Source: Treponema sp. (GTDB lineage: Bacteria > Spirochaetota > Spirochaetia > Treponematales > Breznakiellaceae). Taken from it: a DNA stretch of 39,965 bases. Below the pieces are notes generated by a model that worked only from the letters and a program-made list of their open reading frames with translations, was not told where the DNA came from and made no database searches. The stretch spans positions 1 to 39,965 of the forward strand of contig JAISQJ010000112.1 in NCBI GenBank assembly GCA_031274285.1. The letters run 5' to 3'. Position numbers and translations under genes: made by a program. This document shows positions 5,395 through 31,202 of this stretch, in pieces. Position 1 is the first letter of the stretch. Every line of letters starts with the position of its first letter.

Positions 5395-6248
5395 TAGTGA
5401 CCTCCCATGGCGGCTAGTTCCGCTTCCCGTGCGTCAAGCTCCTTGAGAGCCTGGGCGTAGATCTCCTCGGTGAAAATTCCGTTGTGATAAGCGGCGTTTC
5501 CTTCGGCAAAGGAAAATCCCCTGCCCTTGATCGTATCCAGTATGATAAGGGCGGGCCGGTCCTTTACCTCCGCGGCTGCTTCAACCGCCTCGATTATTTT
5601 TTGCGGATCGTGGCCGGGTATGATGCGGACATCCCAGCCAAAGGCCCGCCACTTTTTATCCAGATCGGGGATGGAGAATATCTCCCCGGTGGGCCCGGTG
5701 GCCTGAACCTTGTTCCAGTCCAGGAAGGCGGTTATATTGCTGGCCTTATAATTTGAAGCCGCCATGGCCGCTTCCCAGAGCTGGCCTTCGGACTGCTCCC
5801 CGTCTCCCATGACCACATACACCCGTGCGGGGTTGTTGTCCAGCCGCAGGGCCAGGGCCATGCCCAGACCGATAGAGAGACCCTGCCCCAGGGAGCCGGT
5901 GACGCCCTCGATTCCGGGTATGGAAAGATCGGGATGCCCCTGGAGGAGGCCGTTAATTTTTTTCACCCGTTTTAATTCTTCACGGGGGAAACAGCCCAGT
6001 TCACAGAGGGCCGCATACTGGATCAGGGCGGCATGGCCCTTGGAAAGGAGCAGCCGGTCCCGGCGCGGGTCCTGCAGTTTGTCCTTTCCAAAATGCATGG
6101 TGTGAAAGTAGAGCACCGCCATGAGTTCCGCCAGGGAAGCGGAGCCGCCCAGATGCCCCGCCGCGCCAGTGCCGATCATTTCTACCACATCCCGGCGGAG
6201 TTTCAACGCGATGGTATGCAGTTTCAAAATCACAGCTTCGTCGATCAT
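5394..6248 (-). CDS. Split transketolase, N-terminal subunit
   Basis: The 284-residue protein is the thiamine-diphosphate-binding half of transketolase: GTGAAGHLGGSASLAELMAV near residue 27, SKGHAALIQYAAL, and the cofactor motif beginning GDGEQSEGQLWEAA and ending with N in FLDWNKVQATG. The chosen start (ATG, complement of 6246-6248) gives MIDEAVILKLH, which is where family members begin, and a GGGGG stretch precedes it. The open frame runs further upstream but only into the neighbouring gene. Split transketolases are often found in dedicated catabolic operons, and here the pair sits between two TIM-barrel isomerases. Confidence 0.9.
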   Translation of the reverse strand: MIDEAVILKLHTIALKLRRDVVEMIGTGAAGHLGGSASLAELMAVLYFHTMHFGKDKLQDPRRDRLLLSKGHAALIQYAALCELGCFPREELKRVKKINGLLQGHPDLSIPGIEGVTGSLGQGLSIGLGMALALRLDNNPARVYVVMGDGEQSEGQLWEAAMAASNYKASNITAFLDWNKVQATGPTGEIFSIPDLDKKWRAFGWDVRIIPGHDPQKIIEAVEAAAEVKDRPALIILDTIKGRGFSFAEGNAAYHNGIFTEEIYAQALKELDAREAELAAMGGH

Positions 6249-7080: not shown

Positions 7081-7761
7081 CTACAGCGCTTCCAGCATGG
7101 TCCGGGCCCGCTGGAAGGCCAGCCGGGGGGAAGTATACACCGGCACGCTGTTGGCGGCCGTCTCCTTTTCAAGGACCGCCATGGAACCCTGGGCCAGGAC
7201 AATACAGTCCACATCCGCACTTATCCGTTTGATGTCCTCCAGCACCATGGCGTTGTGGGCCGCCGGGTCCCCGGCCCGCAGGATCTTAAAGGCCTTGTCG
7301 TTCAGCACCGAAACAACCTCGATCTCCTTGCCCGCATCCGCCGCACACTGCCGCAGCAGCCGTTCCGAGGAGGGCATGGTGGAAGCCAGGGTACCGATAA
7401 GCCCGATGCGGCGGCCCGTAGCCACCGCCTTTTCCATCATGGGCCGGTCGATTTGCAGCATAGGTACCCGAATCATGGGCCGGGCGAATTCCACCGCCTG
7501 GTTAAAGGTGGAGCAGGCAAGCACGATAAGATCGATGCCGGCATCCTCAAAGAACCGGGCAAAGGTGGCAAACTTGTAAAAATTCACCTTGGGTATGGTC
7601 CCCACCGGCGCCGCCAGGTTGTCCCGCTGGACCGTGTCGTCCCCCGCATGCATGATGGAAACCTCGGGCATCACCTCCCGGGCGATAGGTTCCAGCGAAA
7701 CAGCGGTAAACACCGCCGCATGGATAATCCCCAGGGTCTTTCCGGTCAAATCTTTACTCAT
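7081..7761 (-). CDS. Asp/Glu racemase-superfamily protein
   Basis: The 226-residue protein has the two-domain Asp/Glu/hydantoin racemase fold. The start at 7761 is preferred over one further upstream because AGGAGG lies seven bases before it and the fold begins at KTLGIIHAA. The first catalytic cysteine is present (VLACSTFNQA, Cys83). At the position of the second cysteine the sequence reads VLAQGSM (189-194) without Cys, so a two-base racemase mechanism is unlikely. A one-cysteine lyase, isomerase or decarboxylase mechanism, as in arylmalonate decarboxylase-type members, is possible. It is the first gene of the leftward operon. Confidence 0.8.
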   Translation of the reverse strand: MSKDLTGKTLGIIHAAVFTAVSLEPIAREVMPEVSIMHAGDDTVQRDNLAAPVGTIPKVNFYKFATFARFFEDAGIDLIVLACSTFNQAVEFARPMIRVPMLQIDRPMMEKAVATGRRIGLIGTLASTMPSSERLLRQCAADAGKEIEVVSVLNDKAFKILRAGDPAAHNAMVLEDIKRISADVDCIVLAQGSMAVLEKETAANSVPVYTSPRLAFQRARTMLEAL

Positions 7762-28709: not shown

Positions 28710-29786
28710 ATGTTGGGAACCATGAAAGGGGCGATCCTGCCCGGTAACAGTACCGCTGTTCTCAAGGATTATCCCATCCCCACGCCGGGATGGGGGCAGG
28801 TCCTGGTCAAAACCAAGGCGTCCACCATCTGCGGCAGCGATATCCGGGCCATTTACCGGGAACACCAGGGCAAGGGGCCGGAGGGCTACCAGGGCGTTAT
28901 CGCGGGCCATGAACCCAGCGGGCTGGTGGTGGAGGAAGGGCCGGGGATCAGGCGGTTTAAGCAGGGTTCCCGGGTAATCGTGTACCATATCTCCGGCTGC
29001 GGGGTCTGCCACGACTGCCGCAGAGGTTACATGATTTCCTGCTCTTCCCCCCTGCGGGCCGCCTACGGCTGGCAGCGGGACGGCGGCATGGCAGACTATA
29101 TCCTCTGCGATGAAAAGGACCTGGTGGAGCTTCCCGCCGCCCTAAGCTACGCCGACGGCGCCCAGGTTGCCTGCGGATTCGGCACCGTCTACGAGGCGAT
29201 ACAGAAAGTCGGGGTCAGCGGCAGCGATGCCGTGCTGGTGGTGGGCCTGGGGCCGGTGGGACTGGCGGCGCTGATGCTCTGCCGCGCCATGGGGGCCCGG
29301 CAGCTCTTTGGCATTGAAATGAATCCGGCCCGCGTTGAACTGGCGAAAAAGCTCAACCTGGCGGACAAGGTCTTAAGCCCGGCGGATACCAACGTCGAAG
29401 AAATTATCGCCCTTACCGGGGGCCGCGGGGTGGAACGGGCCTTTGATTGTTCCGCCAGCGACGCCGGTCGGGCTACGGCAATCCGTGCGGCCCGGCAGTG
29501 GGGCAAGATTGCCTTGGTGGGGGAGGGCGGGACCGTCAACTTTAACCCCAGCCCGGATATCATTCATCCGCAAAAAACCATCTACGGCAGTTGGGTTACC
29601 AGCATCTGGCTTATGGAAGACCTGGTAGAAGAACTGGTCCGCTGGAATATGCACCCGGAAGACCTTATTACCCACCGCTTCCCCCTGGACCGGGTGGGCG
29701 AGGCTTACCGGCTTATGGCCGGGGGGAACTGCGGCAAGGTGGCCGTTTGCTTCGACGAAGAATTGACCGGGGAATCTGCTGGTTAA
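28710..29786 (+). CDS. Zinc-dependent alcohol/sorbitol dehydrogenase (MDR family)
   Basis: The 358-residue protein is a medium-chain zinc dehydrogenase. The catalytic-zinc segment is TICGSDIRA with GHEPSG, structural-zinc cysteines lie in CGVCHDCRRGYMISC, and the NAD-binding glycines are in VLVVGLGPVGLAALM. Members oxidise polyols, threonine or secondary alcohols, and the substrate here is open. The ATG at 28710 has AAGGAG upstream. The last codons (GESAG, stop) lie in the first copy of a 23-base tandem repeat, so the C-terminus may have been reshaped by repeat insertion. Confidence 0.88.
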   Translation: MLGTMKGAILPGNSTAVLKDYPIPTPGWGQVLVKTKASTICGSDIRAIYREHQGKGPEGYQGVIAGHEPSGLVVEEGPGIRRFKQGSRVIVYHISGCGVCHDCRRGYMISCSSPLRAAYGWQRDGGMADYILCDEKDLVELPAALSYADGAQVACGFGTVYEAIQKVGVSGSDAVLVVGLGPVGLAALMLCRAMGARQLFGIEMNPARVELAKKLNLADKVLSPADTNVEEIIALTGGRGVERAFDCSASDAGRATAIRAARQWGKIALVGEGGTVNFNPSPDIIHPQKTIYGSWVTSIWLMEDLVEELVRWNMHPEDLITHRFPLDRVGEAYRLMAGGNCGKVAVCFDEELTGESAG

Positions 29787-29882
29787 AAATCGGGGAATTT
29801 GCTGGTTGAAAATCGGGGAATTTGCTGGTTGAAAACCGGGGAATTTGCCTATTGAAAACCGGGGAATTTGCATGGTATAAAG
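29768..29882 (+). repeat. Five tandem 23-bp repeats
   Basis: Units begin with CGGGGAAT at 29768, 29791, 29814, 29837 and 29860, an exact 23-base period. The third is almost identical to the second, and the last diverges after its tenth base. The array starts inside the 3' end of the dehydrogenase gene and runs up to the DUF4143 ATPase gene. The period is not a multiple of three and there are no spacers. Confidence 0.95.
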
Positions 29883-29921: not shown

Positions 29922-31202
29922 ATGGCGCTGACCGAGAAGGGCTATAAACCGCGGATCGTTGATAAAAAACTTGGAAATTTAATTTCCGAATTTGGGGCCG
30001 TATTGGTGGAGGGTCCCAAGTGGTGCGGGAAAACCTGGACCGCCTTGAATCATGCCGGCAGCGTGGTTTTTATCGCCGATCCGGCGGGGAATTTTAGAAA
30101 CCGGGAAACGGCGCTGCTTGATCCATCGCTGGTATTGGAAGGTGAGCCGCCGCTTTTAATTGACGAATGGCAGGAAGTTCCCGGATTGTGGGATGCCGTT
30201 AGATTCTCTGTGGACCGGCGCCGTAAAAAAGGGTTGTATATTTTAACAGGTTCCTCCATGCCGGGGCGGCATACCTATGTACACAGCGGCGCCGGGAGAA
30301 TTGCGCGGCTGCGCATGCGGACCATGTCGCTTTTTGAGTCCGGGGATTCTTTGGGGACCGTTTCTCTGGCCCATCTTTTTACCGGCAAAGATATTGATCC
30401 TCAAAAATCTTCCATGACCTTAAACAAGATTATCAACTTAACGATCAAGGGCGGCTGGCCGGTTTTTGCGGGGAAAAAGAAATATTCCCTGGATATTCCC
30501 CGGCAGTACCTTGAGCGTATTGCCGACAGCGAAGTGTCCTATGCCGGCGGCAGCCGCCGGGACGGATCAAAAATTACGGCGGTAATCCGATCCCTGGCGC
30601 GAAACAATGCCACCCTGGTCAGCACAAAAACAATACAGAAAGACATTGATGCCGAAGGGGATCGTGTAACGGCGGATCGTAATACCGTAAGCTTGTATCT
30701 GGAACTGCTTAAATCACTTTATGTTCTGGAGGAGATTCCCGGATGGGATCCCGCTCTCCGGTCCACAAAAAAACTGCGGGTAAGTCCCAAGCGTCTTTTA
30801 ACGGACCCATCCCTGGCGGCGGCGGCAATAGGCGCCACGGCGGACAGGTTAAAAAAAGACCTTAACACCTTTGGATTTCTTTTCGAGGGCCTGTGTATCC
30901 GGGACATCCTGGTCTACGGCGAATTAAACGGCGCCGCGGTATACCATTACCGGGATGAAGCCGGCCTTGAGGCCGATGTGATTCTGGAACTTCCCAATGG
31001 CCGCTGGGGGGCCCTGGAAATAAAACTGGGGGCCCATCAAACAGATGCGGCGGCGGCCGGCCTTTTAAAGCTTAAGGCTAAAATGAAAAAAGCCGGCTTG
31101 GACCCGCCCGCATTTTTGGCGGTGATAAGCGGCCTTGCCGGGTTTGCCTGCCGCCGGGACGATGGGGTATATGTGGTTCCCATTGACTGCCTGGGCGCGT
31201 AG
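29922..31202 (+). CDS. AAA_14/DUF4143 ATPase
   Basis: The 426-residue protein has a P-loop (EGPKWCGKTWTA, near residue 30), Walker B (LLIDEWQEVPGLWDAV) and sensor region (LYILTGSSMPG). The DUF4143 C-terminal part ends in a PD-(D/E)XK-like signature (EADVILELPNGRWGALEIKLG). These proteins are abundant accessory genes of unclear role, perhaps in stress or mobile-element defence. ATG 29922 follows GGGGG and is my choice; in-frame ATGs at 29904 and 29910 and a TTG at 29868 are alternatives. It stands alone between an array of repeats and purA, which suggests acquisition. Confidence 0.85.
   Translation: MALTEKGYKPRIVDKKLGNLISEFGAVLVEGPKWCGKTWTALNHAGSVVFIADPAGNFRNRETALLDPSLVLEGEPPLLIDEWQEVPGLWDAVRFSVDRRRKKGLYILTGSSMPGRHTYVHSGAGRIARLRMRTMSLFESGDSLGTVSLAHLFTGKDIDPQKSSMTLNKIINLTIKGGWPVFAGKKKYSLDIPRQYLERIADSEVSYAGGSRRDGSKITAVIRSLARNNATLVSTKTIQKDIDAEGDRVTADRNTVSLYLELLKSLYVLEEIPGWDPALRSTKKLRVSPKRLLTDPSLAAAAIGATADRLKKDLNTFGFLFEGLCIRDILVYGELNGAAVYHYRDEAGLEADVILELPNGRWGALEIKLGAHQTDAAAAGLLKLKAKMKKAGLDPPAFLAVISGLAGFACRRDDGVYVVPIDCLGA

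Follow-up and report, generated by a model that had tools for sequence, protein, structure and literature searches.

In the DNA analysed here, a stretch of 39,965 nt from a Treponema sp. (contig JAISQJ010000112.1, assembly GCA_031274285.1; hereafter the window), five direct repeats of 23 bp occupy the space between the end of a dehydrogenase gene and the start of a gene for a DUF4143-family ATPase-nuclease, and the question raised by this locus is to which of the two genes the array belongs and what it does there. The best upstream repeat period was 23 in 97 of the 98 loci of the DUF4143 subfamily concerned, including that of the window. The constancy of this period, its confinement to one clade, the divergence of the repeat units together with the protein, and the absence of additional sites from two genomes were all observed computationally. 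We hold with moderate confidence that the array serves the DUF4143 gene as its operator, bound by the product of that gene and controlling its promoter, probably by repression.

The array (29766..29876, plus strand), whose unit is approximately CGGGGAATTTGCTGGTTGAAAAY, was delimited by Tandem Repeats Finder (TRF), by its core positions and by the 23-bp lag seen in relatives. TRF reported a period of 23, 4.8 copies, 87% matches and a score of 164, the runner-up among the 19 rows for the window scoring 60. The five CGGGGAATYTGC cores start at 29768, 29791, 29814, 29837 and 29860, and thus follow one another at a step of exactly 23. The preliminary description of this DNA had spoken of an exact 23-base period, which holds for the spacing; the copies themselves are not exact, 78 of 88 positions being identical to the base 23 further on. 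The units abut at this period without spacers, and the array therefore does not qualify as a CRISPR array. Unit 1 contains the stop codon TAA of the dehydrogenase (29784-29786), the same place reads TGA in units 2-4 and holds no stop codon in unit 5, and the fifth unit degrades into the apparent -10 box of the DUF4143 gene. The coordinates thus agreed with the preliminary description in that the array begins in the last codons of the dehydrogenase, supplies its stop codon and reaches the next gene. The array nevertheless does not belong to the dehydrogenase but to the DUF4143 gene downstream, the relatives of which carry 23-bp arrays in other genomes and phyla.

A search with the DUF4143 protein at an E-value of 1e-25 hit 30 further genomes of the family and none of the six genomes of the same genus. 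TRF detected period-23 arrays with very different letters upstream of the family relatives, and autocorrelation over lags 10-45 gave a best lag of 23 in all 29 family loci having upstream DNA, window included. The locus set was widened to other genomes of the window's phylum, eight of the nine plasmid records found (the plasmid loci deriving from Collinsella, Bacteroides, Prosthecochloris, Actinomyces and Lentilactobacillus), four faecal phage-labelled contigs and viral contigs, in which a scan with the single protein had found no relative and an alignment-based search found eight; 48 further genomes gave three genes, two from one Lachnospiraceae genome and one from a Tannerellaceae genome. 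In a uniform test over the same lags, the best lag was 23 in all 63 loci, that of the window among them, and likewise in 56/56 and 39/39 loci made non-redundant at 90% and 70% identity, respectively. Scores at lag 23 had a median of 27.6, whereas the medians at the neighbouring lags 22 and 24 were 4.8 and 5.0 and shuffled sequences reached about 7.3 at their best lag; the lag-23 score exceeded all 100 shuffles in 60 of the 63 loci. As for the downstream control, 23 was the best lag in 1 of 58 loci. The arrays of the 63 loci comprised 1.4 to 7 units (median 3.4).

The same period was recovered in all nine further paralogues, in 22 of 23 loci of an out-of-sample test on Bacteroidota (395 genomes searched; 1/22 downstream) and in the three last-added loci, namely two family matches and the ninth plasmid, which is nearly identical to another. 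The exception, L284, had a best lag of 25 owing to a stronger unrelated repeat farther upstream, and a 23-bp array also adjoins its gene. The first 95 of the 98 loci correspond to 57 non-redundant ones at 70% identity, and the subfamily hosts include the window's phylum, Bacteroidota, Chlorobiota, Actinomycetota and Bacillota, as well as plasmids and viral contigs. Loci without upstream DNA (L208, L271), repeats of other loci (L223, L243, L267) and L252, a truncated gene without lag 23, were left out. In L252 (G571:C103:53491-54207), the match starts at profile position 183, and two CACCGCCAAACTA-like stretches directly precede the C-terminal half, a layout that looks as if a deletion had fused the array to the gene.

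While the period was constant, the unit sequences of the subfamily diverged to background. In the genome of the window (G000, 83.5% complete), the unit was found at up to three mismatches solely in its own array, and the unit of the G240 locus was likewise confined to its own array in that genome. No instance of the two-unit pattern of the window array turned up in 194 further genomes of the family, and in a sample of 391 others from the phylum the window unit was not found as an array, occurring as an isolated single site at two mismatches in 11 genomes. A comparison of the array DNA with plasmids and phages gave weak matches only (E-limit 10). According to the preliminary description, a single copy in close relatives without other occurrences would have pointed to a one-time duplication of no function. 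The search for the 23-mer elsewhere in the genome indeed revealed no other occurrence, but this outcome is misleading because conservation lies in the period rather than in the letters. The corresponding explanation, a chance minisatellite arising by slippage without function, fits the uniqueness of the unit sequence within the family and, as an array, within the phylum sample; it is barely credible in the face of one and the same period across phyla in differing sequences confined to one clade.

Recurrence of the unit letters themselves next to DUF4143 genes was considered as well and dropped. Scanning for two CGGGGAATTT cores gave at least 115 stretches in genome contigs and one in a viral contig (116 together), and a strict filter assigned 73 of the 116 to carB coding sequence among the matches listed. 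The remaining 43, inspected by eye, comprised more carB and several stretches of Halobacillus-type coding sequence (DGEFGGLLPGEFVN); no DUF4143 gene was recognised by eye in the open reading frames neighbouring 17 of the 43, where no family search was run. Among the genome-contig loci L019-L133, carB genes of many phyla mimic the array in their coding sequence, carrying on the minus strand two CGGGGAATTT cores at a distance of 23 bp (encoding KIPRFxFEKFPG). Unrelated tandem arrays on GGGGAATTT were also encountered, one in L047 from position 5479 (Sulfitobacter, GGGGAATTTCTGCGTCATTAT, period 21) and another in L063 from position 7402 (Tahibacter, GGGGAATTTCGGGACACCCAC).

When 58 array-bearing and 20 other DUF4143 proteins were placed in one tree, a single branch with a support of 100/100 set the array group apart from the rest, and the array trait required one change versus 18 in shuffles. 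The tree and covariation sets admit rows with a lag-23 score of at least 9 and omit L184, L208, L210, L215, L223, L230, L242 and L243; the faintest rows within the clade are absent from the tree because of this admission by score. Genes from plasmids, viral contigs and chromosomes of several phyla are intermingled in the array clade, as expected for horizontal transfer. Among the 20 other DUF4143 genes, one (L151) had a best lag of 23, at the level of shuffles.

Within the clade, unit similarity followed protein identity (r = 0.65 over 67 loci, reached in 0 of 2000 permutations), and below about 50% protein identity it was at or near background, the period still being 23. Genes from different genomes at 60-95% identity had a mean unit similarity of 0.657 (166 pairs), and paralogues within one genome at protein identities below 0.5 had a mean of 0.438 versus a background of 0.429 (13 pairs, the first copy of G141 being represented by L182, the DNA of which is 97% identical). 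The units thus track the protein clade and not the host genome. These observations bear directly on the possibility that a host regulator, rather than the encoded protein, binds the units, for which it could be adduced that at some of the loci the units overlap a promoter-like site. As the units of paralogues sharing a genome are unrelated while same-clade genes across genomes share them, and as no further unit copies exist in the two genomes searched, a host-encoded binder appears very unlikely.

When 11 pairs of loci were aligned, homology was limited to array and gene in five (L220/L222, L224/L225, L186/L188, L193/L195 and L198/L199), the ends of homology lying within -121 to +132; in L224/L225, for instance, it extended from -111 to +17 and the annotated neighbours differed. 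The array thus diverges along with its gene and in some pairs moves with it, so that each lineage would have a private code of its own. The cassette-like behaviour of the five pairs, and the presence of relatives on plasmids and virus-labelled contigs, would also suit an array that is a working site. The ATPase would assemble there so that the cassette can be cut, mobilised or copied, or so that the nuclease is kept inactive, and any effect on transcription would be secondary. MuB, Orc and Rep proteins assemble on repeated sites, and the ATPase model described below resembles archaeal AAA ATPases, with weaker matches to Orc/Cdc6 and MuB; direct repeats of about two helical turns are also reminiscent of plasmid iterons. 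Unlike IS21- and Tn7-like elements, which have binding repeats at both ends, the arrays are nevertheless one-sided, as is evident from the downstream control, and the window genome holds no further unit at three mismatches. A Pfam search at E 0.001 moreover identified AAA_14 and DUF4143 only, without any replication-initiator or transposase domain. We thus consider a working site unlikely, and the operator reading is pursued below through the protein that would bind the array.

The DUF4143 gene (29922..31202, plus strand, starting at ATG 29922) was assigned on the basis of Pfam, PADLOC, alignment and a structural model. The protein matched PF13635 with 101.7 bits (cut-off 28.1) and PF13173 with 41.8 bits (cut-off 27), and so belongs to the DUF4143 family; it also matched PDC-S01 of PADLOC at E 1.6e-56, a profile for which no curated cut-off is given. 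A PDB sequence search and a PHROGs search gave no match, and NCBIfam gave one far below its cut-off. The domains are arranged in the order of AAA ATPase, predicted winged helix and PD-(D/E)XK nuclease, and the motifs of both the ATPase and the nuclease are intact: a Walker A motif GPKWCGKT (30012..30035, residues 30-37 counted from codon 29925; G30, G35, K36 and T37 invariant), a Walker B-like DEWQ (30162..30173, residues 80-83, invariant) and a PD-(D/E)XK-type motif E349, D351 ... E365-x-K367 (30969..31025, invariant and backed by nuclease-fold matches), each on the plus strand and judged over 35 sequences. An AlphaFold model built with eight sequences had a mean pLDDT of 77.8, lower in the AAA part. 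Its residues 1-303 matched the archaeal AAA ATPases 2qen (Z 12.9, 259 residues) and 2fna (Z 11.9, 255 residues), and the model also matched STAND ATPases, such as the plant NLR RPP1 (Z 11.3) and CED-4 (Z 10.7). Residues 188-294 matched Fur-type winged helices with Z up to 9.4, and residues of about 273-425 matched Can2/Card1-type nucleases with Z 7-8, values that can arise without kinship. The putative recognition helix (30678..30716, plus strand), the third of the predicted winged helix, covers residues 252-264 of the model and was designated from the model, the winged-helix matches and covariation.

At the array end, a putative -35 element TTGAAA (29852..29857) lies in the fourth unit and a putative -10 element TATAAA (29876..29881) lies 40 nt before ATG 29922, both found by eye on the plus strand. 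Over the 63 loci, the distance from the array end to the start codon had a median of 29 nt (range 0-117), and TATAAT-like boxes occurred between -8 and +16 of the array end in 34 loci versus 16 in a within-array control span. A rival possibility is that the repeats act as RNA in the transcript, in the form of a leader structure or a small RNA; among eight arrays folded, that of the window folded well (z -6.1) and one other did too (z -3.7). The remaining six, however, fell between -1.5 and +1.5, and many arrays stop before the -10-like box. RNA structure was thus rejected as a common feature of the arrays, and an RNA role is highly improbable.

In the operator reading, each 23-bp unit would be a binding site for the DUF4143 protein, copies of which would bind head to tail via the winged helix lying between the ATPase and nuclease domains, and contacts between neighbouring subunits would fix the 23-bp step of about 2.2 helical turns. 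Occupancy would most likely block RNA polymerase, because the last unit reaches the -35/-10 region, and would hold a potentially harmful ATPase-nuclease at a low level, a state that would last until the protein is drawn away from the array by some event, for example infection by a phage. We infer this protein-DNA binding, the repression, its trigger and the reason for a step of 23 from the features described above. Covariation supports the proposed contact but is not decisive. When 414 windows of 13 residues were ranked by their correlation with unit similarity beyond overall identity, using 313 pairs of 0.5-0.9 identity, a range picked after a null scan of pairs below 0.75, rank 1 fell on ATG-numbered residues 252-264 (model 251-263), which overlap the putative recognition helix, and random sets of 13 variable columns equalled the helix window in 5 of 5000 draws.

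Several points weigh against this reading. The correlation of the top-ranked window was modest (r = 0.284); at 0.6-0.9 identity (161 pairs) the helix window ranked fourth of 414, behind 18-30, 338-350 and 15-27; its signal was weak (0.10) over all pairs below 0.9 identity, and the scan of pairs below 0.75 identity had no clear peak. The AAA part of the model is of low confidence, and the defence role of the protein is a candidate label. As for the promoter, that of the window is weak by consensus, a consensus scan having missed the TTGAAA/TATAAA pair (18-nt spacer, -10 without the final T) and listed 29763-29790 instead; the enrichment of -10-like boxes at array ends is only about twofold, and sites at -35 can activate as well as repress. 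The arrays of L215 and L230 are faint, the former having a best lag of 43 when 260 nt and another anchor were used and of 23 in the uniform test. Furthermore, 5 of the 11 pairs are silent on a cassette because longer flanks are common to both loci, and in L181/L182 the gene alone aligned.

Among the closest known systems is PDC-S01, described in a recent report as an ATPase fused to PD-(D/E)XK that ranks fourth in frequency among prokaryotic defences and is unvalidated (PMC12988326). The protein downstream of the array matches both profiles of such PDC-S01/DUF4143 (PF13635) AAA_14 ATPases; the 23-bp array marks one subfamily of them, and the available text of the report does not mention an upstream array (PMC12988326). 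A precedent for repression of a defence locus from direct repeats in its promoter is RptR, which is reported to repress an Escherichia coli defence island and its own promoter from three direct repeats overlapping the -10 element, and is a 9-kDa dimer recognising 9-bp repeats with a conserved TAGCTA core (PMC12255303). The present arrays differ from the RptR repeats in that their presumed binder is the ATPase-nuclease, in that the units recur every 23 bp and in that the unit sequence is clade-dependent. Plasmid iterons are likewise direct repeats of about two helical turns beside the gene of their winged-helix, autoregulated Rep binder. Unlike at iteron origins, the DUF4143 protein of the window has no Rep domain by Pfam, and the contig holds purA and guaA. 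The best structural matches of the model, SSO1545 (2fna), PABY2304 (2qen) and the STAND ATPases of NLRs and apoptosomes, share 8-15% identity with it, and the nuclease part matches separately, to the Can2/Card1 type noted above. Among the papers listed, which excluded preprints and most subscription papers, no description of the arrays upstream of DUF4143 genes was found.

The gene on the other side of the array encodes a zinc-type alcohol dehydrogenase (28710..29786, plus strand; assigned by Pfam and the ends of its orthologues), whose end and stop codon are provided by the first repeat unit. Its C-terminal end is CFDEELTGESAG, the final residues being translated from the array, and five full-length orthologues of the same genus (75-81% identical) end in CFDEELK, CFDEELTAKG, CFDEELTTKG, CFDEELIKG or CFDEELHQQFSC. 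In three of the five same-genus neighbourhoods (G101, G105 and G106), a HIT-family gene recognised by eye (MADCIFCKI / MDDCIFCKI) lies 3' of the dehydrogenase, and in the window the dehydrogenase is followed by the DUF4143 gene, purA and guaA, the latter two recognised from their translations. As neither DUF4143 nor purA gave a tblastn match in the five same-genus dehydrogenase stretches, an insertion into the interval between dehydrogenase and purA is undatable. The preliminary description had further suggested that the array may vary in copy number or mark an insertion hot spot. The former was confirmed by L212, L213 and L214, which share 92-98% protein identity and have about 4, 5 and 7 units; no sign of a hot spot at the array was found.

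Repeats of other periods were found in other DUF4143 clades. When lags 10-60 were considered, 6 of the 20 other DUF4143 genes had a best lag of 39-40. Five of these (L145, L149, L153, L156 and L159), which are same-genus DUF4143 genes of the other clade, exceeded 60 shuffles, L149 barely, and L158 stayed within them. The units of this second clade are often palindromic, as in TTTTGCCCCTAAAGGGGCAAAA, and the six genes fall in one seven-row tree group, the seventh row being L148. Plasmid relatives (L299-L309), hand-chosen for diversity among 24 listed rows, had a best lag of 39 or 40 in 7 of 11, where about 0.4 would be expected if the 51 lags were alike, and four of the seven exceeded 60 shuffles. 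In a third clade, L144 carries a 33-bp tandem repeat of about 3.3 copies upstream of its DUF4143 gene. The repeats in the second clade provide a lead that clade-specific operator geometry may be general in DUF4143 proteins. A bolder conjecture, which we put forward tentatively as being on the improbable side, is that every gene of the DUF4143 superfamily possesses a private address array with a clade-fixed step, on which an ordered multi-subunit complex would silence the gene and sequester the nuclease, so that an invasion stripping or titrating the array would release the armed nuclease, making the gene a self-addressed immune switch.

The present case indicates that a feature invisible to sequence search can be near-universal by its period. 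A built-in array would give a probable DNA site for every member without experiment, making binding and regulation directly testable, and would supply many naturally matched protein/DNA pairs from which a winged-helix recognition code could be read. The array matters since PDC-S01 is reportedly among the commonest candidate defence genes and is reported as unvalidated (PMC12988326).
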